Shown here: one piece after another, positions 34,299 to 51,028 of the stretch | Position numbering within the stretch: the first letter of the stretch is position 1 | Layout of the letters: each line of letters opens with the position of its first letter | From: Armatimonadota bacterium | Lineage (GTDB): Bacteria; Armatimonadota; Hebobacteria; CAIYQO01 | DNA: 64,000 nucleotides | Direction: 5' to 3' | NCBI GenBank assembly: GCA_029553475.1 | Contig: JAKPKV010000114.1 | Span: forward strand, 124,001-188,000 | Made by a program: the position numbers and the translations under genes | The notes under the pieces: generated by a model | The model's input: only the letters and a program-made list of their open reading frames with translations | Databases searched by the model: none | What the model was told of the DNA's origin: nothing

Positions 34299-34313
34299 TC
34301 CGATTCATCTTCA

Positions 34314-36194: not shown

Positions 36195-37042
36195 CAGGCC
36201 TTCTCCGCATCAACAAACCGGTACGACGCAAATTCACACACCCGCCGATAGCCGATCTTCTGATAGATACGATTCGACGTCGGATTATCGAGGTCGGTGA
36301 AGAGGTAGCAGAAGCGGCGACCGCTGTCCAACAGATGCTGACTGAGGGCGGCGACGTTTGCGGAGGCATATCCCCTGCCGCGATACTCGGTCGGGGTGTA
36401 GACGTTGTTGATGCGCATCCCGTGCGGCGTCGGGCCGCAAAAGGCCGCCAGCGAGACCGGAGCCGGGTCTTTCCAGAGCCAGAACAGCCGCTTCTCCAAC
36501 CCGCGCTGGACGATCTCCTCTGCCGCGCGGATATCCGCGTGTGTCAACGTGTTGAACTCGCGCATCCAGGTCACCAGCAAGGCTTCATCGGCCGGGGTGG
36601 CTTCCGCGGTATGCCCGCCCGGATGCGCCGGCGACGCCACGCGGTCCAACTGGTAGACGCCCATGCTCTTCTCCATCTGTGCCCGTATCGCACGGTCATC
36701 GGTCCAGCACGTCGCGAATGCCTCCACCGTTTCGATCGGCCCCAGCACGCCGGGCAGCGCATGGCCGCCAGCCTGCAGCGCTTCAACGAGGCCGGCCATA
36801 GCGTCCGCCTCCATGCGCGTGAGTTGCAGATGATACGGCGGCGTCTGCAACGCGGCGGCCACCACCTGCCCGGCGTGCTCGATGGCATATAACACGGGCG
36901 GGTCATCGCCCCACTTGCCAGTGCCATCCGCCAGGCGCAGGGCGACGCTGATCATCAGGTTATTTTCGGCTTCGTGCTGAAGAAGGAAGGGGAGCGCCTT
37001 GTCACAAAAGATGCGAGCATCCGTATATCGCACTAACTCCAT
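36194..37042 (-). CDS. GNAT acetyltransferase with N-terminal regulatory half (FR47-like)
   Basis: The 282-residue protein has an N-terminal half (about 1-145) with ENNLMISVALRLADGTG and a long helical arm, then a C-terminal acetyltransferase with RINNVYTPTEYRGRGYASAN near 213-232 and YLFTDLDNPTSNRIYQKIGY near 247-266. This is a common layout in Gram-positive-like genomes. The reaction target is not known. ATG 37042 has AAGGAG 8 bases upstream; the longer start at 37075 was rejected. It overlaps the kinase gene by 10 bp. Confidence 0.85.
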   Translation of the reverse strand: MELVRYTDARIFCDKALPFLLQHEAENNLMISVALRLADGTGKWGDDPPVLYAIEHAGQVVAAALQTPPYHLQLTRMEADAMAGLVEALQAGGHALPGVLGPIETVEAFATCWTDDRAIRAQMEKSMGVYQLDRVASPAHPGGHTAEATPADEALLVTWMREFNTLTHADIRAAEEIVQRGLEKRLFWLWKDPAPVSLAAFCGPTPHGMRINNVYTPTEYRGRGYASANVAALSQHLLDSGRRFCYLFTDLDNPTSNRIYQKIGYRRVCEFASYRFVDAEKA

Positions 37043-37668
37043 TCCAGACTCCTTTTCAGGACATTGAGGCAGCATGCAAATATGCCATCAATCGCCATTG
37101 ATGGCGCCACATGAATAACAGACAGATCATGTTCGAAGCATTCTTTGCGTATCCGACCGTTATGCCCTTGGCTTCGCGCCACGAAATGGCGGATCATCGC
37201 TTCTTCGTCCGACGCCCCACGGTAGAAGTTGACCGCAGTACGCACGCGAGCTTCAAACACCTCGTCATCAGCGACCAGCCAGAGGGAGGCGACATGCGGC
37301 AATGCCAACTGCGCCACCCGTGACGGGTACAGTGCCCAGCCTTCGAGCACCACCGGATCGCCCCAGGCGGCATGGGCGGTGATGACCTGGGCGATGGCCG
37401 GCCAGAGGGCGGCGTGGCGGCGTTCGGCATCGGCGATGAGAGCGTCAACGGAGCGCGTGACGTAATACTCCCGGTAATCGCCCCCGGCCATCTCATGCAG
37501 CGCCGGGTGGCTCTGCGCCGTCGTCACCGCACCGATGGCCTGCCCGAGGTCATCGGTCGAGAGGCAACCGTACTCCAACCGCGCCGCCAGTTTGCGCGCG
37601 AGCGTGGACTTGCCGATCATCGGCGCACCGCCGATGAGGATGACTTTGGGATGGAGTGATGATGTCAT
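37033..37668 (-). CDS. P-loop kinase (2-phosphoglycerate-kinase/zeta-toxin-like)
   Basis: The 211-residue protein begins with a beta strand and Walker A loop IGGAPMIGKSTLARKLA (12-28). 'CLSTDDLGQAIG' follows near 34-45, the second-substrate region of small kinases, then a hydrophobic strand with DPVVLEGWALYPSRVAQL near 103-120. A lid is indicated by RTAVNFYRGASDEEAMIRHF. The substrate is unknown. The product may phosphorylate a sugar or nucleotide-like compound; a toxin role is not supported because no antitoxin is adjacent. The start at 37668 is ATG. Confidence 0.7.
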   Translation of the reverse strand: MTSSLHPKVILIGGAPMIGKSTLARKLAARLEYGCLSTDDLGQAIGAVTTAQSHPALHEMAGGDYREYYVTRSVDALIADAERRHAALWPAIAQVITAHAAWGDPVVLEGWALYPSRVAQLALPHVASLWLVADDEVFEARVRTAVNFYRGASDEEAMIRHFVARSQGHNGRIRKECFEHDLSVIHVAPSMAIDGIFACCLNVLKRSLEWS

Positions 37669-37674
37669 CTGCTT

Positions 37675-38139
37675 TCACCCGAGTTCTTTCACCAGTTCCC
37701 AGGCCCCGCTCTCCCAGAGTTCCGTATAGCGCTTCCTGATGACAAAGCCCTGCGATTGGTAGAAGCGCACCGTGGCCGCATAGGCGGGATTCACCTCCGG
37801 CGGCACCGTCATGACAACAACGCGATCAAAGCCCAGCGCGCGCACCGTGGCGCACAGATGCTGCACGAGGCGTGATCCACACCCCTGGCCCTGATACTCG
37901 GGATGGGTGCCCATCAGCGTGACGTGGATGGCGCCGTCCAAGCAGGTGAACATGAGCATCGCGACCATGCGGCCATCCACGCGCACGCACAGGGCATCCT
38001 GGAAGCGCAGGTCACGCGCCGTATCGTCCGGCACATTCGCGGTGAACCACCGCCCGGTCAGTGCGCGGACAATGGCCAGGATTTCTTCGGTGACCCCTGC
38101 CGGGGGACGATGATAATGCGCAATGCAGTGTTCAGCCAT
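37675..38139 (-). CDS. GNAT acetyltransferase
   Basis: The 154-residue protein has the single-domain GNAT order: a helical arm with AIVRALTGRWFTANV, then AMLMFTCLDGAIHVTLMGTH as the central sheet, 'PEYQGQGCGSRLVQHLCATV' as the acetyl-CoA loop (about 86-105) and NPAYAATVRFYQSQGFVIRK as the closing unit. It looks intact. ATG 38139 overlaps the previous GNAT's stop (38132) by 8 bp; ATG 38163 is the longer option. Two GNAT genes are thus directly adjacent but not closely similar. Confidence 0.85.
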   Translation of the reverse strand: MAEHCIAHYHRPPAGVTEEILAIVRALTGRWFTANVPDDTARDLRFQDALCVRVDGRMVAMLMFTCLDGAIHVTLMGTHPEYQGQGCGSRLVQHLCATVRALGFDRVVVMTVPPEVNPAYAATVRFYQSQGFVIRKRYTELWESGAWELVKELG

Positions 38140-38698
38140 GCTGCCCCACAATCTCCCGCTCATACAACTGCGTCATTCCGCCGAGGCAGTGCGCGACTAC
38201 GCCGCATGGCGCAAAACCTTCCCGTTCGTAATAGCCACAGATTCCCGGATTGCCGGCGGCGGTATTCAGGCGCAGGTAGCGCCGTCCCCGTGCAGCGACC
38301 TGCTTCTCGACCCACGCCAGAAGTGCCTTGCCGACCCCCATGCCGCCGATTTTCCGCGACACCGCAAAGCCGTGCAGATATCCTGCCTGCCCATCGAGGC
38401 CCGCATCACCCCACAGGGTCGTCTCCTGCCAGCGGATGGTGAAGGTGGCGACGGGCACAGCATCCTTGAAGACCAGATACACCTCATCCGTTGTAAATCG
38501 TGCGGCGACAAAGGCCCGCCCCTCCGCGGTGAACATCCGCCGCCACTGCCGAATGCCGCGCGTCTGCAACCAGTCCGAGGCTTCCTGCATCAGCGCCATG
38601 ATGCGGTCGAGTTCCTCGCTGCCGACCAGAACGATGTCCAGCAAGCCGGCAGGGGTCTGGATTTGATCCTGAACAGCGTTCTGCAGCGATTCCATCAT
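38132..38698 (-). CDS. GNAT acetyltransferase
   Basis: The 188-residue protein shows DIVLVGSEELDRIMALMQEA at the start, DAVPVATFTIRWQETTLWGD as the core sheet, YLHGFAVSRKIGGMGVGKAL near 107-126 as the acetyl-CoA loop (Gly-rich rather than Arg-rich), and LNTAAGNPGICGYYEREGFA near 149-168. These match the single-domain GNAT family in order and spacing. ATG 38698 overlaps the purN stop by 4 bp (ATGA), so the two are coupled. The substrate is unknown. Confidence 0.87.
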   Translation of the reverse strand: MMESLQNAVQDQIQTPAGLLDIVLVGSEELDRIMALMQEASDWLQTRGIRQWRRMFTAEGRAFVAARFTTDEVYLVFKDAVPVATFTIRWQETTLWGDAGLDGQAGYLHGFAVSRKIGGMGVGKALLAWVEKQVAARGRRYLRLNTAAGNPGICGYYEREGFAPCGVVAHCLGGMTQLYEREIVGQHG

Positions 38699-39318
38699 CG
38701 CTCCTTCACCATAGCCCCTGGCAGCACAATCGTGCCGTCACTAATTTTCTGCAACGTCTCCACATAAAACGCATGCTCGCGCTGCAGCACACGTTCGGCA
38801 AGGGTGTCAACGGTATCTCCCTCGCACACCGGCACTTCGCATTGGGCGATGATTGGTCCGGTGTCATAGTCCGCGGTGACGAGGTGGATGGTCACGCCAG
38901 TGGTGCGTTCTCCGGCGGCCAGCACGGCCTCATGCACACGGCGGCCATACATCTCTTGCCCGCCATATTTCGGCAATAGCGCCGGGTGGATGTTCAGGAT
39001 ACGCCCGGCGAAATGCCGCAGCGTCTTCGGCCCAAGTTTCTTCATGTGTCCGGCGAGGACGACGATTTCGACGTCATGCGTCACTAATGCCTGTAAAATC
39101 GCCTCATCCAACGCTTCCGGCTCTGGATGCGTCTTTCCGCTCAAATGGTAGGCGGGAATATCTTCGCTGCGTGCTCGCGACAGTGCAAGAGAGCCGCCGT
39201 TGTTGCTGATTACCACGGATGGGATGGCATGGAGCTCCCCTGATTTCGTCGCAGCGATAATCGCCTGCAGGTTGCTGCCGCCATGCGAGGCGATGATGCC
39301 TAAACGGAATGATGCCAC
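38695..39318 (-). CDS. purN: Phosphoribosylglycinamide formyltransferase (PurN type)
   Basis: This family transfers a formyl group from 10-formyl-THF to GAR in purine synthesis. The 207-residue protein has LGIIASHGGSNLQAI near 6-20 (phosphate loop), the catalytic segment RILNIHPALLPKYGG near 106-120 with Asn and His, and the folate-site GVTIHLVTADYDTGPIIAQC near 141-160 containing the catalytic Asp. No purine operon surrounds it; it sits among acetyltransferases. That leaves open a second, specialised formyltransferase, for example acting on an amine or sugar nucleotide. Confidence 0.88.
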   Translation of the reverse strand: MASFRLGIIASHGGSNLQAIIAATKSGELHAIPSVVISNNGGSLALSRARSEDIPAYHLSGKTHPEPEALDEAILQALVTHDVEIVVLAGHMKKLGPKTLRHFAGRILNIHPALLPKYGGQEMYGRRVHEAVLAAGERTTGVTIHLVTADYDTGPIIAQCEVPVCEGDTVDTLAERVLQREHAFYVETLQKISDGTIVLPGAMVKER

Positions 39319-39356
39319 AGTAGATCCCTTTCTATGCTCTTCGTAGTAGAGGCTGG

Positions 39357-39827
39357 CTAATCTAGCACAGTCGGGCTCGCCGGAATAACCCCTGCATTAA
39401 TCTCTCGCACAATACGCCCAATACCTGGGGGACTAAACGCATCATCGGATTCCAATATGTCATCAGCACTCCACCAGCGATACTCTTTTAACGTCTCAAT
39501 TTCATTTGGGGTCAGATTATCAAGAGATACCGCGAAATCAGTCACTCGAACGAGAAAAAGTCTTTCATAGCTAATAAATGGCGCGTCACCATCGATTAGC
39601 ACTTCCCTAGTCCATAGCCATGGTCCTACATCATCTAGTTTAAGCCCGGCCTCTTCAGACAGCTCTCGCTTCAACGCATCCTCGTAGTTCTCACCGTCTC
39701 CCAATCCTCCACCCGGAGTTACCCAAAACACCTTCTCACAACCAGCAAATCGGAACGTAAATTTGTATAACAGTACAAGGCCATCACGATTAATAATTAC
39801 TGCCCTTGCAGAATGTCTCATCTTCAT
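39357..39827 (-). CDS. NUDIX hydrolase
   Basis: The 156-residue protein contains a complete Nudix box, GGLGDGENYEDALKRELSEE then AGL, fitting GX5EX7REUXEEXGU at about residues 40-62. It would hydrolyse a nucleoside diphosphate linked to another group (X), often as housecleaning. MKMRHSARAVIINRDG is a typical MutT-like start. The gene is noticeably richer in A and T than its neighbours, so it may be a recent arrival. Its start follows the frameshifted pyrophosphatase-like gene by 3 bp, so the two probably formed a pair. Confidence 0.92.
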   Translation of the reverse strand: MKMRHSARAVIINRDGLVLLYKFTFRFAGCEKVFWVTPGGGLGDGENYEDALKRELSEEAGLKLDDVGPWLWTREVLIDGDAPFISYERLFLVRVTDFAVSLDNLTPNEIETLKEYRWWSADDILESDDAFSPPGIGRIVREINAGVIPASPTVLD

Positions 39828-39830
39828 GCA

Positions 39831-40183
39831 TCATCCTTTTTCACGAATAAAAAGAATTGCCGACATTGGCCCGCCATTATGGAATGCCAGAATGATCTGC
39901 ATCTCTTCCGCCGTACACCCAAGCAACACCTTCGCTTCCATATCGCGCTTGAGCAGGTCAACGGTAAACACCACGCCGGTCACGCTGCGTTCAGGCAGGC
40001 TCCCCACCCAGCAGTCAATCTCATGCCGTCACTGGAGCTGGTATCCTGCAGGTAGCCGTAATCCAACGGATAGATCATGGCAGGAAAGCGCGGGTGCGCG
40101 GCGCCTTTCGGACGGGCGATGATGACTTCACTACTTGCCATCAATTTATCCAACGATTGCCAATATGCCGGTGAAGTCATCAT
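39831..40183 (-). pseudogene. Inorganic-pyrophosphatase-like gene with a one-base frameshift
   Basis: From ATG 40183 (GAGGAGAGG upstream) the first frame reads MMTSPAYWQSLDKLMASSEV, then 'FPAMIYPLDYGYLQDTSSSD', the substrate region of small soluble pyrophosphatase-like proteins (YPxDYGyl). After the codons for SSDG near 40022-40030 the frame is lost. The +2 frame continues exactly in register: EIDCWVGSLPERSVTGVVFT, VDLLKRDMEAKVLLGCTAEE and a normal ending MSAILFIREKG with stop at 39831. A single missing base explains both parts. It could be a true mutation or an assembly error. Confidence 0.82.
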
Positions 40184-40227
40184 CGTATCCTCTCCTCTCT
40201 CATCGCAGGCGAATGCGGTGTGACCGC

Positions 40228-40884
40228 TCAGAGTTCCATTTCTCGTGTCACATCTACACAACCGACCCCACCGCGTAACCGTTCCCCAGTGTTGGGATCT
40301 TTCATCGCCATGAGATGCAACATAAAACTGTCTTTGCCATACCGCTCGGTGACTGTGCTGCGGATAAATGTATCACTGGCCGCGAGAAATTCCACTTTGC
40401 CGCAGATCAAACGGCACCGGCTATTGGGGTGTAATTCCTTCTCCCACTCGTACCGGCATTCCAGTTTCAGAAAGCTCTCTTGAATTCGCGGTACATCAAT
40501 GGTCCGTGCTACCTCAGGAGTGAACCCGGAGCTGATGATTTCGTCGGTATCATCGTTATTGGCAGTGATCGAATGCTTGCATTGGTCAACATAATCTGCC
40601 GAGAGAAAGTTGATACAGAATTCCCCCGTACGCATGATATTCCGATAGGTATGCGTATGCGTCATCACCTCGGACATGACGACGTAATAGTGTTCTCCCT
40701 CGCCCGAGAAACAGGACCACCCCTGCAGGCACGCATTGGGCAGGCCATTCTCCTTGCGCGTGGTGACCATAAATATGACATGGGGAATGGCTGTGACAGA
40801 GGCCATCCAGGAAAAAAGGCTGAATTGCCCGGGCCAATCCTCGGAAAAATGGGCAGGCTTGCTATTGCTATGTTCGAAGCTCAA
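40228..40884 (-). CDS. Flavin reductase-family protein (FMN-binding)
   Basis: The 218-residue protein resembles the DIM6/NTAB flavin reductase fold: 'WMASVTAIPHVIFMVTTRKE' near 26-45 with the flavin-binding turn, NACLQGWSCFSGEGEHYYVV near 50-69, 'GEFCINFLSADYVDQC' and 'ESFLKLECRY'. It would bind FMN and pass electrons from NAD(P)H. The start is a TTG at 40884 with AAGGAGG 6 bases before it. The longer open frame upstream overlaps the HAD gene in another frame and was rejected. The HAD stop at 40868 lies 17 bp inside it. Confidence 0.8.
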   Translation of the reverse strand: MSFEHSNSKPAHFSEDWPGQFSLFSWMASVTAIPHVIFMVTTRKENGLPNACLQGWSCFSGEGEHYYVVMSEVMTHTHTYRNIMRTGEFCINFLSADYVDQCKHSITANNDDTDEIISSGFTPEVARTIDVPRIQESFLKLECRYEWEKELHPNSRCRLICGKVEFLAASDTFIRSTVTERYGKDSFMLHLMAMKDPNTGERLRGGVGCVDVTREMEL

Positions 40885-41494
40885 GGTAACCCTCCTTATC
40901 AAAGCTGAGCGTCCATTCCGCAAACGCCGCATCCGTCGTATATTGGTGCGCCATCCCCCCGCGTGCCCGAAAGGCGTCCAGACATTTTGGCATGTCATCA
41001 ATGAGCAGGCTGTCCTCGAAGGTACAGTCATCCAACTGTCCAAAGGCAATCTCGCACAGCGCGTTTTTATCCTCCGTGCCGTAGTCCGCCGAGTTCACCA
41101 CCACGTCGAAGACCCGGTCAAAGCCGTGTGCGGGGACGACGACGCGGGTGAAGACGTCCATGTTGACCGTCACCAGTGCGGTATGCCGTCCCTGCGTTCG
41201 CTGCGCCTGCGCGAAGCGCCAGACCGCCGGGTTTAACTGCAGGTTAGCGCACCCTGCATCCAATGCGGAGAGAATACGCTCCGGCATCAATCCAGTCAAT
41301 CCGGAGAGATAAGCGACGATATCGGTTGACGAGAGCCTACCGCAGCACCAGGGACTCGCCCAACGCGTCTTATGCTCCCCGGTAAAGATCGCCGCTGTCA
41401 CCACTGTGCAAAACTCCGCGCCCAACGGCCAGAAGTACGGTGTGGGGCTGAGCGTGCCGGCGAAGTCGAAGATGATGCAGCGTAACGGATTCAT
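40868..41494 (-). CDS. HAD-superfamily hydrolase with an altered first motif
   Basis: The 208-residue protein has MNPLRCIIFDFAGTLSP at the start. HAD phosphatases normally have DxDGT; here the second Asp is Ala (DFAGT), as in phosphonoacetaldehyde hydrolase-type members. HTALVTVNMDVF near 105-116 is motif II, and EDSLLIDDMPKCLDAFRA near 159-176 is motif IV with the metal-binding acids. A helical cap lies between. Phosphatase activity is therefore uncertain; C-P or other bond cleavage is possible. GGAAAG precedes ATG 41494. Confidence 0.78.
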   Translation of the reverse strand: MNPLRCIIFDFAGTLSPTPYFWPLGAEFCTVVTAAIFTGEHKTRWASPWCCGRLSSTDIVAYLSGLTGLMPERILSALDAGCANLQLNPAVWRFAQAQRTQGRHTALVTVNMDVFTRVVVPAHGFDRVFDVVVNSADYGTEDKNALCEIAFGQLDDCTFEDSLLIDDMPKCLDAFRARGGMAHQYTTDAAFAEWTLSFDKEGYLELRT

Positions 41495-42012
41495 CGCAAT
41501 GCTTTCCGCATCAAGGCAAACTCGTCATGGTACACCAGTGAGATCAACGTATATCCGCTGTTCCGCCAGAACGATACCGGTCCGGAAGGGTTATCGGCGC
41601 TATTCATCCGGGCAATCGTCTCAACAGCGGTGAACCCGTCGTTGCTGGCTTGCTCTTCAACCCTTGCGCGCAATCGTTGACCGAGACCCTGTCCCTGCAT
41701 GGAAGAAGCAATATGTAAGCAGGCGATCAGCAGGGAGTCCGGCGAAACCTCTCCACACTGATACTCGCGGAGCATCGGAAAGAAGGGCGAGGCGGCAAAA
41801 TGGCAGAACCCCACCGGTGTTTCGTTGACATAGGCCACAAATCCCCAGGCAGTGACTCCACCGCGCTTACGTATCCATTTCTGCTTCAGCGATGTTGCTC
41901 GCTCGATGTCAGGACGCGTTTTAAATATTCGCGGGTGCTCCCAGTACAGGCAGGCTTGGCACATGCTGGGGAGCCGCGATGCAGCGGTATACGGTTCAAT
42001 GCGATATGCCAT
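41491..42012 (-). CDS. GNAT acetyltransferase
   Basis: From ATG 42012 the 173-residue protein has 'AWGFVAYVNETPVGFCHFAA' as the core sheet, SLLIACLHIASSMQGQGLGQ near 101-120 containing the acetyl-CoA loop, and a C-terminal NSADNPSGPVSFWRNSGYTL near 144-163. The N-terminus carries 'CQACLYWEHPRIF', a Cys-rich start seen in a distinctive GNAT subgroup. AAGGAG lies 12 bases before the ATG. The target is unknown. The stop overlaps the HAD start by 4 bp, so it is coupled to it. Confidence 0.82.
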   Translation of the reverse strand: MAYRIEPYTAASRLPSMCQACLYWEHPRIFKTRPDIERATSLKQKWIRKRGGVTAWGFVAYVNETPVGFCHFAASPFFPMLREYQCGEVSPDSLLIACLHIASSMQGQGLGQRLRARVEEQASNDGFTAVETIARMNSADNPSGPVSFWRNSGYTLISLVYHDEFALMRKALR

Positions 42013-42082
42013 CGAGTGGTGTCTCCTTTTCAGCGCTGGCGAATGTCGAAGATGATGGCGCGGATCGCCCGATCGGTCTGCC

Positions 42083-42617
42083 TCATGCCCCCTCCAGGTC
42101 AATCCAGTATCGCGCGTGCGGCGGCCCCGTCTCGGGATGCGTGCCGTCGGTATCCCGCACGCCGCCGTTTTTCACAATCACGCGCGCGGAGGCGTGGTTG
42201 TCCAGATTGCAGGTGAGCAGCACGCGGCGCAATCCCAGCGCGCGCGCTTTCTGCAGCGCCAGCCCCAGCATGCGGGTGGCCACCCCGCGCCCCCGCGCCG
42301 ATGGACGCACCGCATACCCGATATGCCCGCCGTAATGCTCGAGATTCGGGGTGAGGCGGTGGCGCAGCTTGAGCACACCGACCACCTGCCCGCCGCACAC
42401 CGCCCAGTAGACATGCTGCGGCACGGCCCAAGTCCGGCAACCCTTCGCCCCTTGACTCGCGGTGTAACTGCGCCACGAACCCGGCAAAATCATCGCCGGG
42501 CAGGCGGTAAAACGTCTCTGGTTCACTGCGCTCGATGAACTCGGCGAGATAGGCGTGATATTCTTGTTCGAGAACGGTGGTCGGACCCACCAGTTGCAGC
42601 GCGTTTTCGGTATCCAT
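42083..42617 (-). pseudogene. GNAT acetyltransferase broken by a frameshift
   Basis: Two overlapping frames encode the two halves of one GNAT. The first, from ATG 42617, gives MDTENALQLVGPTTVLEQEY then FYRLPGDDFAGFVAQLHRES to about LPD near 42437. The second continues in another frame: WAVPQHVYWAVCGGQVVGVL, 'LEHYGGHIGYAVRPSARGRG' with the acetyl-CoA loop, and the ending PPHARYWIDLEGA at 42083. Neither alone is complete, and joining them at about 42430 (two bases missing or one extra) restores a typical protein of about 177 residues. It could be decay or a sequencing error. Confidence 0.85.
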
Positions 42618-42622
42618 GTATG

Positions 42623-43402
42623 TCATATCCTCTCTGGCTTTGTCAGCATGAGCAAACTCGCCCCATACGCCACAAACCCCACGCTCCGCGCCGTGGCGAT
42701 GGAGGCGCTGTTGTCAATATCACAGGTGTAGCGCACCTCGCCCCCCGTGCGCGTACAATGCGCCACCAGCGCGGTGACGGCCGTCCGGGCATAACCGCGT
42801 CGGCGATACGGCTCCGCGGTACAGACGGCGATATCGGCCACCCGATCCGGCATCGTGGCCGTGCGATGGGCATACGCGATGGCGACCACCATTTCATCGG
42901 CCATCACGCCATAGGCCACGCCTTCTTCGATGCATTGCGGCGGCCACCAGAGCCCCTCGGCGTGCGGCAGCGTCACCTCGGTAAGCCGCCGGCAATCGCC
43001 GGCGGCAGCCCGCCGCAGCAAGTCGGCGTTGCCGGCAAAACAACGATCGGCGAACACCCCATGCGTTCCCGGCAATCCCGCCTCACGCAGTACGCGGTCA
43101 ATCACCCGTCGCAGCGCCGCTGCCAGGGCAGGATCATACACCAGGCATGGGTCCGTGATGCCGGTCACCAGCGCCGCCACCTCCCGCCCGGCCCCCGGCG
43201 GCACGCTCACCACCGACCGCCCATCCGCCAGCCACACCCACCACAGTGCGCGGACATACGAAAAATGTTCCTCCGCAACCAGGCGCAGCGGCGTCTCCAC
43301 CACCGCCGTCTGTCCCGGTGGAATTGCCGAGAAGTCGCAATCAAAGCGAAGGGAGAGCTGCCGGTCGCTGAGCGGGAATGGGGTATTAGCGCCGTTCATC
43401 AT
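42623..43402 (-). CDS. Two-part GNAT acetyltransferase (FR47-like)
   Basis: From ATG 43402 (or the next codon, 43399) the protein is about 259 residues. The N-terminal half (1-130) is a diverged GNAT-like region. The C-terminal half has VADIAVCTAEPYRRRGYART near 185-204 and YTCDIDNSASIATARSVGFV near 225-244. The last segment matches the copies at 34314 and 36194, indicating a related subfamily in the island. The 14-bp overlap with the APH-like gene upstream supports this start over the longer open frame from 43621. Confidence 0.82.
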   Translation of the reverse strand: MMNGANTPFPLSDRQLSLRFDCDFSAIPPGQTAVVETPLRLVAEEHFSYVRALWWVWLADGRSVVSVPPGAGREVAALVTGITDPCLVYDPALAAALRRVIDRVLREAGLPGTHGVFADRCFAGNADLLRRAAAGDCRRLTEVTLPHAEGLWWPPQCIEEGVAYGVMADEMVVAIAYAHRTATMPDRVADIAVCTAEPYRRRGYARTAVTALVAHCTRTGGEVRYTCDIDNSASIATARSVGFVAYGASLLMLTKPERI

Positions 43403-44333
43403 CCATGATCTCCCGCAGCATCGCGTGCCCGGTTTGCAGCATCTGTGCATCGCCGAGCGCTGTACCGTATTGAAGAGTGCATAACCCGACATGCACCTTG
43501 AATACACGATATTGTTCTGGGTTTTCGAGCGCGATATTTCTCCCATATCCGCTACAAAAGGCCTCTTCCACGCCGGGCGTTTGCCGAAAATGCTTCGACC
43601 AGAGTGAGAAGAACGGGTCAATACGCAGGCTCCACTGCATGCACTCGAAATCGATGACGCCGGTGAACTGCCCAGCCTCGTCTACCAACCAGTTTATCGG
43701 CTGATAGTCGCGGTGGATGGGTATCGGGCATTCACCGGCATAGACATCCAGGCGGTCGAGCATCCAGTGGGCTAACGCGCGCTCTCGCTCGTCGAGGTCG
43801 CTGCTTGGTTGTAACAGCTTCCCGCACCAGAAATCGAATTCCGCCTTCATAAAGGCAACCGGATCATCCCAGGACTTGCCATACGGCTGGCCGTCCGCTC
43901 GGGGGACGCCAAACCAGGAGCCAACCGTAGAATCGTGCATCCGTCGCGCGAGCTCCCCTGCCTCCCGATACACCGCCAGCACCTGCGCCAACGGCAACTC
44001 TCTATCGCGTAGCGGTTGACCCTCCAGCGCGGTGATGAGAACCCCCTGATACCCTTCGCCCTCGATAACCGCGACAAGCTCCGGGACAGACGGGCGAATC
44101 GCGTTCACCCAGTTGTGGTACGCATACACTTCCGGATGCCATTTGCGCAGCTCCGCGTGCAGCTTCAGGAAATAATCCCCCGACGCGGCACGAAGCTTCC
44201 ATACACCACTGCGCACGGAGCCTTCACGATAGCTCATGAGTATCTCAAAGCTGCCGATACTGTGCCGGATTCTCTCTTGTAGCTCTGGTACAATAACCCT
44301 GTATGATGGCTGTATCCTGTGCGTATTAGTCAT
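43386..44333 (-). CDS. Aminoglycoside-phosphotransferase (APH/choline kinase-like) family protein
   Basis: The 315-residue kinase has SGDYFLKLHAELRKWHPEVY near 51-70 with the ATP-site Lys. The catalytic loop is CPIPIHRDYQPINWL near 203-217 (HxDxxxxN-like: HRDYQPIN), and VIDFECMQWSLRIDP near 225-239 provides the metal-binding DFE in place of DFG/IDxxD. Related enzymes phosphorylate aminoglycosides, macrolides, choline or homoserine. Which substrate applies cannot be read from sequence. ATG 44333 overlaps the stop of the short GNAT upstream by 4 bp. Confidence 0.85.
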   Translation of the reverse strand: MTNTHRIQPSYRVIVPELQERIRHSIGSFEILMSYREGSVRSGVWKLRAASGDYFLKLHAELRKWHPEVYAYHNWVNAIRPSVPELVAVIEGEGYQGVLITALEGQPLRDRELPLAQVLAVYREAGELARRMHDSTVGSWFGVPRADGQPYGKSWDDPVAFMKAEFDFWCGKLLQPSSDLDERERALAHWMLDRLDVYAGECPIPIHRDYQPINWLVDEAGQFTGVIDFECMQWSLRIDPFFSLWSKHFRQTPGVEEAFCSGYGRNIALENPEQYRVFKVHVGLCTLQYGTALGDAQMLQTGHAMLREIMDDERR

Positions 44334-44653
44334 CGCTCTCCCCCAAGCTCATACCGAAAACTCACCCCATGCTGCACCATGCCACAGCGCAGGTAAAATT
44401 CATGCGCCGCCGTGCGCGTGGCATTGGAAGTCAGCGACAGCTTGTAGCAGCCCGCGGCCTGCGCCAGTTCGCGGGCGTGTTCGAGCATTGCCCTCCCGAT
44501 CCCCTGTCTGCGTAAGGCATCGTCAACGACGATGTTCTCCAGGATCGCCGCCGGACGCCCGTTGCGCGTCATGTTCGGCAGCAGGTAGAGGACGAAAGTG
44601 CCGACCACCGCGCCGTTCCGTTCCGCCACGAACATCCGGCACCCCTTGGGCAT
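44330..44653 (-). CDS. GNAT acetyltransferase, N-terminally short
   Basis: The 107-residue frame begins MPKGCRMFVAERNGAVVGTF and continues with ILENIVVDDALRRQGIGRAM (acetyl-CoA loop) and ATRTAAHEFYLRCGMVQHGV at the end. Typical relatives of this type carry about 35-40 more residues forming the first strand and helix arm. A stop codon lies in frame just upstream of the ATG, so the 5' part appears lost. It may be a remnant, although its stop is still coupled to the next gene. Without the N-terminal arm the acceptor site would be incomplete. Confidence 0.6.
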   Translation of the reverse strand: MPKGCRMFVAERNGAVVGTFVLYLLPNMTRNGRPAAILENIVVDDALRRQGIGRAMLEHARELAQAAGCYKLSLTSNATRTAAHEFYLRCGMVQHGVSFRYELGGER

Positions 44654-44713
44654 ATACCGGATTCACCATTCCATTCCGCTCCTGCCGTCAAACTCACAAT
44701 GCAAGCCGGTCCT

Positions 44714-45487
44714 TTATCGCGCGATCAGCATCGGCTGAAAAAAACGCTCACGGTCGACGATCACTTCCTGGAATCCCGCTTGTATGAACAGCCGCTCCAA
44801 TGCCTCGACGGTGACACAATAATAGCGCCCGCCGTGGATGACACGCGTGGTCGCTTCCGGCTGGCCGGTATCATGCACGATATAAGTCGTGAAGTCGTAA
44901 TAATCGCCATCGAATTGCCAGAGGTCGAAGAGCACGTCGCGCCCCTCTGGGGTCGCGTGTACCTGGCGCGGGAACATGCGCTGGCCGCTGCGCTCCATGG
45001 CCGCATAGTCACGCACCGAGATGATGCAGGCGCCGCCGGGAGCGATACAGCGACGAAATTGTTGAAAAGCCAGGAGAATATCCGCTTCGTTCAGTAGGTG
45101 TGGCACGGCATTGCCGAAGGCCAGCACGATATCGAATTGGCGCTGGAAGATCGTCCACACCTGCCGCATATCAGCAAGGTGAAACGAAATTGCCAGGTTG
45201 CGCCGCTGGGTTTCTTCCTCGGCCTGCGCCAACTCGGCTGACGAAATATCGGAGGCTGTCACTTGATAACCCAATTCGGCCAACCCGATGCTTTGCATGC
45301 CAGTTCCACAGGCGGCATCCAGCACCGTGCAGGCCGATGCGCCGACATGCTCGCGAATCACGGTATCCAGCAGCGTCGCGTGTCGCCGCAGACTGGTCTG
45401 CCAATCCTGAAGAATCAGGTGATAGTATGGCGCCAGGTCGTCGTAATAATGGGTGATGGTGTCATTGTCACTTATATCCTGTCGCAT
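44714..45487 (-). CDS. SAM-dependent methyltransferase
   Basis: Class I methyltransferase of 257 residues with an N-terminal YYDDLAPYYHLILQDW helix. Motif I is CTVLDAACGTGMQSIGLAEL near 53-72, motif II is YQVTASDISSAEL, LADMRQVWTIFQRQFDIVLA lies near 104-123 and RCIAPGGACIISVRDY near 145-160. The C-terminal beta-rich part (YYDFTTYIVHD...RYYCVTVEAL) is common in glycine/sarcosine-type and many unknown small-molecule methyltransferases. ATG 45487 lies inside the stop of the double GNAT gene upstream (16-bp overlap). Confidence 0.86.
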   Translation of the reverse strand: MRQDISDNDTITHYYDDLAPYYHLILQDWQTSLRRHATLLDTVIREHVGASACTVLDAACGTGMQSIGLAELGYQVTASDISSAELAQAEEETQRRNLAISFHLADMRQVWTIFQRQFDIVLAFGNAVPHLLNEADILLAFQQFRRCIAPGGACIISVRDYAAMERSGQRMFPRQVHATPEGRDVLFDLWQFDGDYYDFTTYIVHDTGQPEATTRVIHGGRYYCVTVEALERLFIQAGFQEVIVDRERFFQPMLIAR

Positions 45488-46584
45488 GATTTTGCCTCCC
45501 ATTCCTCCCGCAGTAACCCAAAGTCATGCATATCGACGAACTCTCCCCCGATTTTGTTCGCTTGCCGCTTTGTGCCTTCATAAATAAAGCCCAGGCGTTC
45601 GGCCAACGCCCGGCTGCGGGTGTTGCGCACGTCGCAGCGGATCCCAAGCCGATTCAGGCCGACGGTAGTGAACAAATACGTCAGCATCGCCCGTCCAGCA
45701 TGCGTCATCAGCCCCTTTCCCGCAAACTCCTTTGCCAGCCAGTAGCCGATTTCCACCGTCTGGCTGTGCGTATTGATGCCGCCGGCGGCAATGATGCCGA
45801 CCAGGCGACCCCGGCAGGCAATTGCCCAGTGGTGCCCGGTGCCCTCGGCCAGTTCGCGCAGTGTGTGGCGCACGAAGGCTTGTATGTCCTCGACACCCCG
45901 CGTATGCTCGGTGAAGGTCATCCAGCGAAGGTGCTCGCGGTTCTGTTCGACTAGTGCGAAGATCTCTTCGGCGTAATGTGGCAGCAACAGGCGCAACTCG
46001 GCATCCTCGGTCAGCGGATATGCGAAGGCGATCTCCCCACGCGGCTCCCACTCCTGCGCCAGCAGGGCGTAGGTTTCCAGGTCATGATACCGCTCGTTGA
46101 GGCGATACGCTTCACGCTGTGTGCCTTCATGGTGGAAGCCCAGGCGCTCCGCCACCCGCCGGCTGCGTGTGTTCTCTGTCACCGCGTAGATTTCCACCCG
46201 GTGCGCCTGCAAGGTGGTGAAAGCATGCGAGATGATCGCCCGGCAGGCTTGCGTCACCAGCCCTTTCCCCTGAAATTCCTCACCGAGCCAGTAAAACAGC
46301 GATGCAGTGTGGTCGCGCCGATGCACCGCATTCAATCCCGCCACACCGGTCAGCACTCCGCCATGCCAGATGCCGGCGAGAAAATTGCCATGCTCGGCGG
46401 TCTCGAGCAGGTACCGCTGCAGGAACTGCCGCCGATCCTCCACCCCCTGGCACGCCGGCACCCAGGTGAGCCACTGGCTGAAATACTCACGATTCTGGTC
46501 CACCAATGCGAAGAGTTCTCCGGCATACCGGGGCTCCAGCAGGCGCAGCTCCGTCTCTCTATCCAAGCGGTGTGCGAAACGCAT
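45472..46584 (-). CDS. Tandem double GNAT (RimL-type) acetyltransferase
   Basis: The 370-residue protein contains two complete RimL-type acetyltransferase domains in a row. The first (about 1-185) has FYWLGEEFQGKGLVTQACRA and ENTRSRRVAERLGFHHEGTQ. The second (about 190-365) has IGYWLAKEFAGKGLMTHAGR and RNTRSRALAERLGFIYEGTK. The strong match between halves shows internal duplication and fusion. Each half alone resembles YdaF-like enzymes, which dimerise, so the fusion may be a single-chain dimer. ATG 46584 is preferred over far upstream starts that overlap the methyltransferase gene. Confidence 0.88.
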   Translation of the reverse strand: MRFAHRLDRETELRLLEPRYAGELFALVDQNREYFSQWLTWVPACQGVEDRRQFLQRYLLETAEHGNFLAGIWHGGVLTGVAGLNAVHRRDHTASLFYWLGEEFQGKGLVTQACRAIISHAFTTLQAHRVEIYAVTENTRSRRVAERLGFHHEGTQREAYRLNERYHDLETYALLAQEWEPRGEIAFAYPLTEDAELRLLLPHYAEEIFALVEQNREHLRWMTFTEHTRGVEDIQAFVRHTLRELAEGTGHHWAIACRGRLVGIIAAGGINTHSQTVEIGYWLAKEFAGKGLMTHAGRAMLTYLFTTVGLNRLGIRCDVRNTRSRALAERLGFIYEGTKRQANKIGGEFVDMHDFGLLREEWEAKSCDRI

Positions 46585-46586
46585 GG

Positions 46587-47291
46587 TTATCGTTCCCTTC
46601 CCACCACGCTCATCCGCCGGCAGCGCCGGGTGTAGAACCCGCCGTCGCGGTCGCCATAGATCGCTTTCACCTTCAGGCCGGCGTCCGCGAAGAGCCGCCG
46701 GAACTGCGCCAGGGTGTAGAGGCGCATGGAGGATGCGAAGCCCGGCTGGCCGGCATCGCTGGTCCACTCGGTGATAATGCGCTGGGTGGCAGTATCCCAG
46801 CGCGTGCGGCTGACCCATTCGCCGACCTGATTCGTCGCGATGAAGTGCCGCAGAATATACTCCCGGTTCGGCTGCTCGATGAGCAGGCGTCCGCCCGGTG
46901 CCAGCGCCGCCGCCATCCGGTGCAGCACATCGGCGTTCTCCTCATCGCTGAAGTAGCCGAAACTGCCGCCCCAGTTGTAGATCGCCTCGAACGCCGCAAC
47001 GTCGTCCAGCGCGCGCATGTCCAGCACGCGGAATGTGCCGTCCACTCCCTCGCTGGCAAAGCGCCGTCCCGCCCGCGCGATGAAGTTCGGGTTGCGATCA
47101 ATGCCGGTCACCCGGCAGCCCGCCTCCGCCAGGTGCACCGCCACCCGCCCGGCGCCGCAGGGGATATCGAGCACGCGCATGCCCGGCTGCAGCGCCAGCG
47201 CCTGTCGGATGAAGCGCGCCTCATCCTCTCCGGTCGCATCGGACTGGAGCCAGTGGCTTTCACTATACAGGTCAATCCATTCCGTCATCAT
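46587..47291 (-). CDS. SAM-dependent methyltransferase
   Basis: Class I methyltransferase of 234 residues: GMRVLDIPCGAGRVAVHLAE near 36-55 (motif I), 'CRVTGIDRNPNFIARA' near 58-73 (motif II), 'GTFRVLDMRALDDVAAFEAI' with the acidic motif III, and AAALAPGGRLLIEQPNREYI near 126-145. A C-terminal beta region (RIITEWTSDAGQPGFASSMR) precedes 'LKVKAIYGDRDGGFY'. The ending and size are common in methyltransferases of unknown small-molecule specificity. AAGGAGACG precedes the ATG, and the start overlaps the previous GNAT by 20 bp. Confidence 0.88.
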   Translation of the reverse strand: MMTEWIDLYSESHWLQSDATGEDEARFIRQALALQPGMRVLDIPCGAGRVAVHLAEAGCRVTGIDRNPNFIARAGRRFASEGVDGTFRVLDMRALDDVAAFEAIYNWGGSFGYFSDEENADVLHRMAAALAPGGRLLIEQPNREYILRHFIATNQVGEWVSRTRWDTATQRIITEWTSDAGQPGFASSMRLYTLAQFRRLFADAGLKVKAIYGDRDGGFYTRRCRRMSVVGRER

Positions 47292-47778
47292 CGTCTCCTT
47301 GTTGCGTGATGAATTCCTGCATCGGTCCCTGCCACCGCGCGTTCACCTGCCTGGTCGTCTCGGTGTATTGGCCGCCGGTATACGCCGCGATCACCGTCCG
47401 CCAGAAGGCCTGTGCGGGCAGGTTGCATGCTTCCTGCGCCACCTGCCACCGTCCCGGAAACCTGGCGAAGATGCGGTGGGCGGCGTCACGCCCGATCCCC
47501 TGGCGGCGGTACTTCCGCAGGATGAAGAACTCGGCCATCTCGTAGACGGCCTCATCGGTCTGCCGCACCAGCGCAAAGCCGGCAAGGTGCCCAGCGACGC
47601 GAATGAACAATGGATGCCGTCTCTCCTCTGTCCAGTAGTGATCGAGATACCGGTAGCCGAACAAGCCGTGTTCGTCAACGTTAGCCTCGTTATATTCGCT
47701 GTAGTCGTGCTGGCACAGTTCCATCAAGTTGCGCAGCACGGCCTTCTGCGCATAGGGGATTGGCGCTAGGTCAATCAT
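47272..47778 (-). CDS. GNAT acetyltransferase
   Basis: From ATG 47778 (GGAGGCCAAGCG upstream) the 168-residue protein has AVLRNLMELCQHDYSEYNEA near the start, 'LFIRVAGHLAGFALVRQTDE' as the core, MAEFFILRKYRRQGIGRDAA near 82-101 as the acetyl-CoA loop and 'ACNLPAQAFWRTVIAAYTGG' near 122-141 as the closing helix. This N-terminal motif (LcqhDYSE) marks a recurrent GNAT subgroup. It overlaps the CHAT-like gene stop by 8 bp and is probably translated with it. The target is unknown. Confidence 0.86.
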   Translation of the reverse strand: MIDLAPIPYAQKAVLRNLMELCQHDYSEYNEANVDEHGLFGYRYLDHYWTEERRHPLFIRVAGHLAGFALVRQTDEAVYEMAEFFILRKYRRQGIGRDAAHRIFARFPGRWQVAQEACNLPAQAFWRTVIAAYTGGQYTETTRQVNARWQGPMQEFITQQGDDDDGMD

Positions 47779-48370
47779 CGCTTGGCCTCCAGAGTTGAAA
47801 CCGTCCGCACTCCGCATCAAACGTGCGTGCCTTCGCCACGGCTTCCATCAACGGCATCTTCATCCAGAACCCATAGAAGAGATGGATGGCGAAAAGCAGC
47901 GCTGAGGCGCCTTCCACCTCACCAACGGGCGCAATGTAGGCCCGGCACTCTCCGGCCAGGAAATTCGCGGCAATAGCTTCGCTCCCCGTGCCGCACCCCA
48001 GGTTGAGAACGAGGCGGTTGGGCAGGGTGATTGCGGTCTGCGCCAGCGGGATGCCCGGCTCACCCGGCACCAGCATCGCCCCCTCACCATCGCCGTGGCA
48101 CGACAAAATCACATACGGGAACGTCACGATGTTCCCCCGCAATATCTCCAATACTTCCTGGCGCGAACCCACCCATTGCACTTCGACACGATAGTTGAAA
48201 CGCTCTAGCACGCTTCGTAAGGCCATCGCTTCCAACGCATCGGCGATGGCAATGAGAGAGATGGCTTCTTTACGCACGTGCGGCACTTCCCAAGGAATAT
48301 CCATTGTCTTCCTTTGCGCCTGAAACGCCCGTCCATTTTGTTCCCACCACTGTTTCACGATTTCCCGCAC
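47771..48370 (-). CDS. Minimal CHAT-like (caspase-fold) protein
   Basis: The 199-residue product starts at GTG 48370 (GGAGGAGAAAACC upstream; TTG 48400 is the longer option). It has a His in PYVILSCHGDGEG (His92) and a Cys in RLVLNLGCGTGSE (Cys126). LAGECRAYIAPVGEVEGASA and 'MKMPLMEAVAKA' follow. The order strand-SCHG...strand-xxCxTG...'ARAyIap...EA...AR' is the CHAT/caspase-like peptidase core with its catalytic His-Cys dyad. Here it stands alone without TPR or NACHT partners. Protease activity is inference; small stand-alone members could instead be sensors or inactive. Confidence 0.62.
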   Translation of the reverse strand: MREIVKQWWEQNGRAFQAQRKTMDIPWEVPHVRKEAISLIAIADALEAMALRSVLERFNYRVEVQWVGSRQEVLEILRGNIVTFPYVILSCHGDGEGAMLVPGEPGIPLAQTAITLPNRLVLNLGCGTGSEAIAANFLAGECRAYIAPVGEVEGASALLFAIHLFYGFWMKMPLMEAVAKARTFDAECGRFQLWRPSDD

Positions 48371-48401
48371 GGTTTTCTCCTCCGTATCTTGTTCCGCCAA
48401 G

Positions 48402-49304
48402 TCACGCTGACAAAGAGGAAGCGTCTATCGCCTGTTGCAGCCGCACTGCAAATTCACCACTCACCACGTGCCTTACGCATCCCTTGGCCCATCCCGGCCA
48501 TTGCGGCAATTGCGCCGCCACGTGCAGGGAGTAGAGCAGCGAAAGCGGCGCATCCAATACCGCGACACGCTCGTCTACCGGGCCATACGTCTCGCTGAAT
48601 GCGGCGCGCGCACGTTCACCGAGCGATCCGAGCACATTGCGGAGATCGCAGTAGGCGGGCCCGATGCCCAGCAAGTGATAGTCAAAGACAAGGGCGCGCA
48701 GCGGCTCCCCGCGCGAGAGCGCCAGGTTCGTCCAATGAAAATCGTTGTAGTTCAGCGTTTCTGGATACGCACGGAACGCTTGTACCAACCGATCGAGATG
48801 TTCTGCGGCAGACCGCCAGACCGGAAGATGCGATAAGCCCAACCGCTCACCGGTGTCCATCACGGATTCGGGCGTGAGGGAAGCGACCTCGCGCGTGAGA
48901 AACGCCGGGATCCCTGCTCGCACAATCCGTTCCCCGGCGGTATGCAGCGCGGTATACCAGGCGGCCACCGCAATGCCGGTCTTCTCACGTTCGATATCCT
49001 CCGCCGTTGCCAATCGCCATGCTGTGCTTGCGGCCAGGTCTGCCATCAGCAAGGCCCGTTCCGACATCCCATACACCGGGAGCGTCGGCACGCCATACCG
49101 CTGAAGCAGGCGAGAGGCAGCGAGTTCGCGAGCAGTGGTGTCGTTGAACAACTTCAACACCGATGACGATCCGACATGAGTGATGCGGTACAGCGCATGT
49201 TGGTCTTTCTTCACGATCAATGCGACAGCTGTCACATCGGTTGAGATCATCCCCAGCTCAGTAAGGGCGGCAATGACCGTAGGTGTATCATACGTGCTTT
49301 CCAT
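48402..49304 (-). CDS. Aminoglycoside-phosphotransferase-like kinase
   Basis: The 300-residue protein has SSSVLKLFNDTTARELAASR near 46-65 with the ATP-site Lys. The catalytic loop ETLNYNDFHWTNLALSRGEP (about 180-199) contains the NDxHxxN-like NYNDFHWTN, and ALVFDYHLLGIGPAYCDLRN near 202-221 supplies the metal-binding Asp. A Leu/Ala-rich helical cap lies between. The catalytic Asp is present but the surrounding motif is diverged from classical HGD, so it belongs to an APH-like subgroup of unknown substrate. GAGGAG precedes ATG 49304. The CHAT-like gene follows. Confidence 0.8.
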   Translation of the reverse strand: MESTYDTPTVIAALTELGMISTDVTAVALIVKKDQHALYRITHVGSSSVLKLFNDTTARELAASRLLQRYGVPTLPVYGMSERALLMADLAASTAWRLATAEDIEREKTGIAVAAWYTALHTAGERIVRAGIPAFLTREVASLTPESVMDTGERLGLSHLPVWRSAAEHLDRLVQAFRAYPETLNYNDFHWTNLALSRGEPLRALVFDYHLLGIGPAYCDLRNVLGSLGERARAAFSETYGPVDERVAVLDAPLSLLYSLHVAAQLPQWPGWAKGCVRHVVSGEFAVRLQQAIDASSLSA

Positions 49305-49346
49305 TGTCACACTCCTCTGCCGAATGTATAACATCCGCCACTGCCA

Positions 49347-50114
49347 TCATCGCCTCCGCAATACCACCATATTATCGTTGGAGAGCCTCCGCAACGGCTC
49401 CGGGCTCTCCCGCTCGAAGTATCCCACCAAGTCAAATGCCCCTGCCAATTCGACCAGGCTGATGAATTCCTGCGGAAAGAAGAAGGGCACGACGCACACT
49501 TCTGACAGCCGCACCGACTGCCCATGGTCATCCACCGCAAACTCCAGCGTGTGCCGGGCGGTTTGCGCCAGCGGATCGAGCACGTCCAGTTGATAATGGG
49601 TGGTGACGGTAATGCCGTCCCGCGTCATCACCCAATCCTGCCGGTTCCCCACGACGGCGCTCACCCAATCCATCAGCAGGTTCTCGATGAGATACAGCCC
49701 GCCGGGGCGCAGCGCCCGGGCCACGCACGCCAGGTGGTCGAGCATCCCCTGGCGGCTCCCGACGTAGGGGATGGTGCCCAGCAGGATATAGCAGACGTCA
49801 ACCGGCGCGGGCAGGGCGAAATCCCGCATGTCGGCGCAGATCGTCTCCACCCGCACCTGCTCCTCCGCCGCCCGCGCGTGCAGATAGGCGAGCATCGGCG
49901 GGCTGGCGTCCAGCCCGACCCCCAGATATCCCCGGCGGGCGAACTCGCGCAACTGCGGCGACGGCCCACAGCAGACATCCAGCACGCGCCGCACCGGGAT
50001 GGCGCTGTACGCCCGGATGTAGGCCTCCAGCAGGGCGATCTGCCGCGGAATATTGACGAAGCCCATGGCAATCTCGTAATACGCGGCATGCTGGTAGACT
50101 TCAGATGGTGTCAT
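49347..50114 (-). CDS. SAM-dependent methyltransferase
   Basis: Class I methyltransferase of 255 residues: VRRVLDVCCGPSPQLREFAR near 41-60 (motif I with a CCGPS loop), YLGVGLDASPPMLAYLHARA near 63-82 (motif II), ETICADMRDFALPAPVDVCY near 90-109 and 'LACVARALRPGGLYLIENLL' near 128-147. A C-terminal beta region includes QLDVLDPLAQTARHTLEFAV. GGGAGGCAGCGC precedes the ATG. It overlaps the stop of the first gene of the array by 4 bp, so the two are translationally coupled. Confidence 0.86.
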   Translation of the reverse strand: MTPSEVYQHAAYYEIAMGFVNIPRQIALLEAYIRAYSAIPVRRVLDVCCGPSPQLREFARRGYLGVGLDASPPMLAYLHARAAEEQVRVETICADMRDFALPAPVDVCYILLGTIPYVGSRQGMLDHLACVARALRPGGLYLIENLLMDWVSAVVGNRQDWVMTRDGITVTTHYQLDVLDPLAQTARHTLEFAVDDHGQSVRLSEVCVVPFFFPQEFISLVELAGAFDLVGYFERESPEPLRRLSNDNMVVLRRR

Positions 50115-50845
50115 GCGCTGCCTCCCTGTGCCGGCCGCGCCTTCCGGCACCAGTAGCGCGCCAGCATGCCGTCAGGATACTCCGCCCGCTCGATGACGAA
50201 GCCCGCGCGGGTGAGCACGCCTTCCATGATCCAGTCACAGGTACTGAACTCTTCGCGGAAGGCCGTCGCCACCTCCTGGCCGAACTCCTCGCCGGCGTTC
50301 CGGGCGAACCGGGCCACTGTCTCCGCCATGAAGCGCGCGTAGTCGGGCGGCGGGAAGCTGTAGACGGTATCCATCAGGTAGCACAGGCCATCGTCCCGCA
50401 GCATCCCGGCGAGGCGCCGCAGGCCGACGAGTTTCCAGAAATCCGGCAGATGATGGAGTGCCGCCATGCTCACCAGCACATCGGCGGGCGGACCATCATG
50501 CGTATACGTCAGGAAACCGCCCTGGCGGAATGTCGCCCCGGTCACCCCGGCCGCGTCCGCTTTCCGCCGCGCGACGGCCAGCATCGCCGGCGAGACATCC
50601 ACGCCATAGGCGATCACCCCACGCCGGGCAGCCTGAATCGCCAGGTTGCCAGAACCACAGCCGACGTCGAGCAAGCTGTGCCCCGCGCGCACGCCCAGGG
50701 CATCCAGCAACCGGTCGGCCTCCGCCGCCAGGTCACCGCGGAAGCGTTGGTGCCGTGCGTCATACTCCTCGGCGACCTGCGGATCAGCGTAATCAACGCC
50801 GACGTGACGGCATTCATCATACTGCCAGGCTGGTATGCGATTCAT
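50111..50845 (-). CDS. SAM-dependent methyltransferase, first gene of the minus-strand array
   Basis: The 244-residue protein has 'VRAGHSLLDVGCGSGNLAIQ' near 52-71 (motif I), 'GVIAYGVDVSPAMLAVARRK' near 76-95 (motif II), 'FRQGGFLTYTHDGPPADVLV' near 103-122 and LAGMLRDDGLCYLMDTVYSF near 142-161. It has the general layout of UbiE-like small-molecule methyltransferases. ATG 50845 has GGAGGCAGCAGG upstream, directly after the U-tract of the intrinsic terminator at 50860-50898. Its expression should therefore depend on read-through of that terminator. Confidence 0.86.
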   Translation of the reverse strand: MNRIPAWQYDECRHVGVDYADPQVAEEYDARHQRFRGDLAAEADRLLDALGVRAGHSLLDVGCGSGNLAIQAARRGVIAYGVDVSPAMLAVARRKADAAGVTGATFRQGGFLTYTHDGPPADVLVSMAALHHLPDFWKLVGLRRLAGMLRDDGLCYLMDTVYSFPPPDYARFMAETVARFARNAGEEFGQEVATAFREEFSTCDWIMEGVLTRAGFVIERAEYPDGMLARYWCRKARPAQGGSA

Positions 50846-50859
50846 CCTGCTGCCTCCAG

Positions 50860-50898
50860 AAAAAACACCACCCCCTCCCGGCATCCGGGAAGGGGTGG
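50860..50898 (-). terminator. Intrinsic terminator (possible attenuator) in front of the array's first gene
   Basis: In minus-strand RNA a 14-base stem (50898-50885 with 50881-50868, one G-U pair) closes a 3-base loop. A UGUUUUUU tract follows at about 50867-50860. The first gene starts 15 bases later, and the predicted promoter is about 100 bases upstream. Confidence 0.85.
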
Positions 50899-50930
50899 AT
50901 TGAAAAGCGCGGCGGGCCCGGATGCGACGG

Positions 50931-50987
50931 TTATGTCTCCCAGGTACCAATGACGATATGGGTATTGGACCGCTGACAGGTATACAT
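50931..50987 (-). CDS. Possible 18-codon leader peptide
   Basis: Between the predicted promoter (51000-51028) and the terminator, an ATG at 50987 opens an 18-codon frame (MYTCQRSNTHIVIGTWET) ending TAA at 50931. The predicted transcript start is only about 6 bases upstream and no ribosome site is evident, so translation would be nearly leaderless. The position fits a leader ORF for attenuation, but a chance ORF is equally possible. Confidence 0.3.
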   Translation of the reverse strand: MYTCQRSNTHIVIGTWET

Positions 50988-50999
50988 GATGATACACTG

Positions 51000-51028
51000 A
51001 CAATACGCGGTTTCGCGGGCCTTGTCAA
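51000..51028 (-). promoter_or_regulatory. Consensus promoter of the minus-strand array
   Basis: Minus strand: perfect TTGACA (51028-51023), 17 bases, TATTGT (51005-51000). It points into the leader ORF, terminator and methyltransferase gene. Confidence 0.7.

Follow-up and report, generated by a model that had tools for sequence, protein, structure and literature searches.

In actinomycetes, the uORF ahead of whiB7/wblC couples translation to transcription: complete translation of the uORF favours a Rho-independent terminator, and disrupted translation favours an antiterminator (PMC11550727). This uORF is linked to antibiotic resistance but answers amino-acid starvation too (PMC11550727). Antibiotic-inducible leader attenuators are also described for Listeria rli53/lmo0919 (PMC11550727) and Bacillus yxjB (PMC6851288), and in Corynebacterium, the uORF of ilvBNC (i.e., the ilvB-II motif) is a conserved short ORF that senses the supply of branched-chain amino acids and suppresses translation of the main ORF (PMC11550727). 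In Armatimonadota, we found no literature on such attenuators. Here, we have analysed a 64,000-nucleotide stretch of DNA (hereafter, the window) from a bacterium of this phylum, in which a sequence-only reading had described, directly before an array of small genes, a promoter, an 18-codon ORF, a 14-bp terminator with a U-tract and a nearby ATG, and had proposed that the array is induced by attenuation or antitermination.

Results

Layout of the element

Sequence inspection together with ORF and motif scans recovered every one of the described parts, and a ribosome site in addition. The order along the window's minus strand, which carries all of the features below, is promoter, 18-codon ORF, terminator, ribosome site and start codon of the first gene. 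The promoter, TTGACA-17-TATTGT (51000..51028; 10/12 in a consensus scan), is composed of the -35 box TTGACA at 51028-51023, a 17-nt spacer and the -10 box TATTGT at 51005-51000, and TTGACA-17-TAT[TC]GT stands in an unchanged position at three homologous array leaders. The transcript is predicted to start at ~50993. The leader ORF, which runs from ATG at 50987 to TAA at 50931, would encode the 18-codon peptide MYTCQRSNTHIVIGTWET, and its start, stop, frame and C-terminus are conserved in G001 and G002, genomes of the same genus and the same family, respectively. Within this ORF lies the Ile/Val run ATC GTC ATT, the likely control codons.

The absence of a Shine-Dalgarno sequence before the leader, which had been considered a weak point of the proposal, was also evident to us. 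The ATG is, however, only ~6 nt from the predicted +1, which would explain the missing ribosome site, and in five other members of the family described below, the ATG coincides with the predicted +1. From the conservation of the leader, we infer that it is translated, with near-leaderless initiation. A search for a genome-wide start-codon peak 6 nt after the -10 box was suggestive only, the sample being too small to decide.

Three short regions follow one another from the end of the leader. Region 1, CCUGG in the last leader codons (50940..50944), could pair, albeit weakly, with the CCGGG of region 2 to form an optional protector stem. Region 2 (GCATCCGGG, 50917..50925) begins 5 nt past the leader stop codon and is the putative 5' arm of an antiterminator; it is the exact 9-nt complement of region 3 (CCCGGATGC, 50881..50889), the 3' arm, which overlaps both the 5' arm and the loop of the terminator. 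The sequence-only reading, while naming an alternative antiterminator stem as something to look for, had overlooked this pairing. A complement as long as that of regions 2 and 3 arose in 50 of 20,000 shuffles. The intrinsic terminator (50860..50898, with the hairpin at 50898-50868) has a 14-bp stem with 11 G-C pairs, the loop ATG and a U-tract (TGTTTTTT) and is the strongest among the terminators in the scanned array region. The ribosome-binding site of the first gene, GGAGG, is located at 50853..50857, and the ATG of this gene, at 50845, follows the U-tract after ~14 nt.

The enzyme array and its counterparts

Behind the element, ~25 small co-directional genes extend from 50845 to ~32,000 (~20 kb), densely packed and in many cases overlapping by a few bases, and a scan of this strand gave no convincing promoter or terminator within the array. 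The first gene (50111..50845, minus strand) encodes a class I SAM methyltransferase (Methyltransf_25/11 in Pfam). With the rest of the array (31965..50150, minus strand; ORFs and Pfam), the content comprises GNATs, SAM methyltransferases, two APH-fold kinases, NUDIX, formyltransferase, flavin reductase, HAD, radical SAM and GrpB proteins, and orphans. There was no obvious array gene that makes or charges Ile or Val. When the first ten array proteins were tested, furthermore, none of the ten reached an NCBIfam resistance cut-off, and only general folds were matched. Also on the minus strand, the window encodes at 29923-31968 an ECF-type sigma factor (Sigma70_r2, r4_2) fused to a long HEAT-repeat domain.

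Upstream of the element, a gene for an ABC-2 permease (ORFs, Pfam) lies on the same strand and ends at 51041. G001 has the same ABC-2 permease, promoter and leader at the syntenic locus; directly behind them comes the orthologue of the window gene at 46587-47291, and then come relatives of those at 42099-42626 and 27586-28491. In G002, the genes behind the leader are a nucleotidyltransferase and, once more, relatives of the window genes at 42099-42626 and 36194-37075. Among the three genomes, the control head is constant and the cargo is variable. Orthologues of the first gene were found in G002, G014 and G041 with 66-75% identity, and the DNA upstream of them was without the leader in G002 and G014 and without a covariance-model match in G041; the leader therefore does not travel with the first gene. 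The 75%-identical orthologue in G002 (contig C38, L006/L141), which has no leader, contains an in-frame TAA close to the N-terminus and is either a pseudogene or an assembly error.

A family of related elements

A similarity search with the window leader DNA as the query revealed three further sites with identical anatomy in the same genome (G000), and a pattern search added a fourth, which is located before ileS. In ~100 genomes of the phylum, a covariance model detected 16 strong members, all in G000, G001 and G002, with a wide score gap to all else; a seventeenth, degenerate member (L137) precedes a GNAT gene in G002. The leader is preceded by a promoter in nearly all of these kin elements. 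The weak matches of the model (C90, C2, C193, G001:C489 and G002:C77) were without leader and promoter, and L036 (C148) turned out to be a plain hairpin and no member of the family. When 84,980 genomes were scanned with the pattern, true members were found only in the Armatimonadetes MAGs UR.bin144 and DeMMO6_22, the contigs of which are those of G001 and G002, and the remaining matches were without the anatomy of the element.

We also performed a blind structural scan for a promoter, an ORF of 7-30 codons, a stop codon adjoining an antiterminator arm, and a terminator on both strands of 1.64 Mb of G000. Of 715 terminator-like sites, the scan returned only two, namely the window element and the one before ileS, and a control with the reversed sequence gave 0 among 675 sites. 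An Rfam search of the window element, both at the gathering threshold and at E 10, gave nothing credible.

Leader peptides and downstream genes

The gene names ileS, cimA and thrS used here are our reading of the translations. The leaders of ileS are MTRAQRQPIIIGITWGP in G000 and MPCALSQTIIIGITWGP in G001, of the type ...PIIIGITWGP before the stop with IIIGI as the control run, and between the two, the Ile residues are retained through synonymous changes. The leaders of cimA, which we take to encode citramalate synthase of the isoleucine pathway, are METRMRDAQRLAMIIDITWEP and METPMGSAQSLAIIDITWEP, of the type ...MIIDITWEP with the run IID.I. In all three genomes, the leaders of thrS end in ...SVTTTRRP or ...HVTTTRRP and contain the run TTT. 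A match between leader codons and the amino acid of the target gene is the signature of amino-acid attenuation, and indeed, the control codons fit the amino acid of the gene in the ileS, cimA and thrS members. The products of ileS and thrS had homologues in nearly all searched genomes of the phylum, as expected for housekeeping synthetases. The thrS leader of G000 (L108) is positioned directly behind a tRNA-like sequence, and its own promoter is seemingly absent.

The leader peptide, which the sequence-only reading had considered possible, is kept before arrays in three genomes: namely, MYTCQRSNTHIVIGTWET in the window, MYTCQQSEIHIVVVTWET in G001, and MHTSTMSEMHIAVCITWET and MNCCLMSEMHIVVISTEP in G002. 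All four array leaders have Ile at residue 11, and their Ile/Val run is in the same place as the control codons of the kin elements; the runs are short and imperfect (I-V-I-G, I-V-V-V, I-A-V-C and I-V-V-I). The leaders of GNAT genes have the C-terminus RH.WTP and those of methyltransferase and 2H-phosphodiesterase-like genes AW.[TP], and no obvious single control amino acid was seen in the GNAT and methyltransferase leaders. Nearly all leaders end with Pro or Thr before the stop (CCA/ACA-TAR; 50933-50938 in the window). If termination at a terminal Pro/Thr were slow, it could conceivably keep the ribosome over region 2.

Synthetase leaders are also found elsewhere in the class. In other genomes, thrS is preceded by Thr-run leaders of unrelated sequence (MASLITTTTTGA, ...ITTITTTYA, MIQSLAGTTTT and MIAVGFNTITTGTT), and the Thr-run leader is accompanied by a terminator at L133, L134, L135, L139 and L262-L271. 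Several of these thrS leaders are located directly behind a tRNA-Val-like gene. Furthermore, one type of ileS, found in G010, G003 and G004 (L229, L231 and L233), is equipped with a promoter, a leader with four or five Ile codons (MNRRAILIASIIIIIDPAVSRERCWTSGG) and a terminator; these IIII/IIIII leaders are unrelated to the window family in sequence and apparently represent independent Ile attenuators. Leader-peptide attenuation of synthetase genes thus seems to be customary in this class, with the window family as one lineage-specific version.

Covariation and folding of the alternative structures

In the family alignment, 93.7% of cells are paired for the antiterminator as opposed to 19-48% with slid partners, and 96.9% are paired for the terminator stem (16 members). 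Three pairs of the antiterminator are altered on both sides, and the covariation score was matched by 0 of 500 shuffles. These two-sided changes include positions in the terminator loop, where ATG is replaced with TTG, TCA or TAC and region 2 changes to match; changes at such positions would be unconstrained by the terminator alone. The protector stem between regions 1 and 2 pairs in 88.8% of cells, and its probability in the modelled nascent RNA was 0. Covariation was sought in this stem and none was found, so that the outcome with no ribosome is uncertain.

We then folded only the RNA left exposed by a ribosome placed on the leader. With the ribosome on the Ile/Val/Thr codons, the modelled probability of the antiterminator was ~0.8-1.0, and with the ribosome at the stop codon, it was 0-0.2 in 14 of the 16 members. 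The other two (C120 of G000 and C160 of G001) keep 0.6 at the stop codon, and their gap between the stop codon and region 2 is the longest (6 nt) in a family where this spacing is 0-6 nt. In the model, the antiterminator remains available wherever the ribosome stalls short of the last codons. The distance from the control codons down to region 2 is 26-32 nt for the Ile/Val codons in the window leader, compared with 18-30 nt for the Ile codons in the ileS leaders and 20-29 nt for those in the cimA leaders.

Discussion

Given the conserved leader, the covarying antiterminator, the match of control codons and the modelled ribosome positions, the element in the window is very probably a ribosome-mediated transcription attenuator that heads the enzyme array. 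The proposal of a conditional terminator under the control of a leader peptide is hence strengthened by an antiterminator that, judging from sequence and folding, exists, covaries and is kept in relatives. The parts, the family and the mutually exclusive structures are supported by sequence, covariation and modelling, and the same lines of evidence strongly support that a ribosome at the stop codon would lead to termination and an earlier stall to antitermination. We infer that the switch operates in this way in the cell. RNA polymerase would start at ~50993, and translation of the almost leaderless ORF of 18 codons would set in immediately. A ribosome that reaches the stop codon would cover region 2 (GCAUCCGGG) and block the antiterminator, and the 14-bp terminator would stop transcription before the array. 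A stall on the Ile-Val-Ile codons, or at another point ahead of the last codons, would leave region 2 available for pairing with region 3 (in the arm and loop of the terminator), and transcription would continue into the array.

The relationship to the elements before ileS, cimA and thrS, together with an Ile/Val run at the position of their control codons, makes Ile/Val-limited translation the favoured trigger, and the array is probably switched on when translation of Ile/Val codons, or translation generally, stalls. Whether a shortage of charged Ile/Val tRNA is the natural signal, as these kin elements suggest, appears to us an evenly balanced matter. Slightly more tentatively, an attenuator of the synthetase type might have been duplicated and recruited as the fixed head of a variable drug- or metabolite-modifying array, so that translation stalls, caused by Ile/Val shortage or by compounds inhibiting synthetases or ribosomes, would induce a changing cargo of GNATs, methyltransferases and APHs.

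Alternatively, ribosome-targeting antibiotics might be the signal to which the same switch is tuned; a ribosome with bound drug would arrest in the leader, free region 2 and induce the array. We regard this as rather unlikely, though compatible with the modelled switch. All of the four array leaders have Ile at residue 11, and the I-V-V-I/I-A-V-C stretch may resemble the Ile-rich arrest motifs of the ErmC/ErmA leaders, but this putative likeness extends over only three or four residues. The APH, GNAT and methyltransferase folds of the array include resistance enzymes, whereas no tested array protein reaches a curated resistance-family cut-off. A stall anywhere before the last codons would free the antiterminator in our model, and the whiB7/wblC uORF attenuators answer antibiotics and amino-acid starvation alike (PMC11550727); nonetheless, those members of the window family with a known target use amino-acid control codons.

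It is very improbable that the hairpin is a constitutive partial terminator, which merely reduces array expression, with the short ORF being incidental. Terminator-like hairpins are indeed common (715 in 1.64 Mb of G000), but the frame, start and stop of the leader are conserved, the antiterminator covaries, the spacing from the stop codon to region 2 is tight, and the element is reused before synthetase genes with cognate codons. Even less probably, the hairpin would terminate the transcript of the ABC-2 permease gene, which lies upstream on the same strand, with the array promoter downstream of the hairpin; a near-consensus promoter is present between the permease and the hairpin, as a promoter precedes the leader in nearly all kin elements, and the ~14 nt from the U-tract to the ATG leave no room for another. 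Least probable of all is a metabolite- or tRNA-binding riboswitch such as a T-box, which often controls ileS and thrS in other phyla, as the leader is short and occupied by the ORF and Rfam gave no match at the gathering threshold and none credible up to E 10.

The attenuation described above points to leader-peptide control of synthetase genes in a phylum that has received little study, and to one attenuator family common to amino-acid genes and resistance-like enzyme arrays. It also raises the question of whether a translation stall is needed to express such arrays, and at which codon it would occur.

In comparison with known systems, the window element is an attenuator of a known type but of a new sequence family, which is absent from Rfam. 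Like the attenuators of the trp/his/thr/ilv type, the family combines a leader peptide and its putative control codons with an antiterminator and a terminator that exclude each other, and read-through is predicted upon stalling; unlike them, it has no covarying protector stem, starts nearly leaderless, belongs to an Armatimonadota lineage and serves both synthetase genes and accessory enzyme arrays with one sequence family. Leaders of rli53/lmo0919, yxjB and erm combine a short leader with a conditional terminator or hairpin before a resistance gene, a layout similar to that of the window element; the known targets of the window family, on the other hand, are amino-acid genes. The ilvBNC uORF of Corynebacterium and the window leader are both conserved short ORFs, while their lineages and targets differ. 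The whiB7/wblC uORF shares the terminator/antiterminator logic of the window switch; whiB7 codes for a transcription factor, whereas the window leader directly precedes the enzymes themselves.
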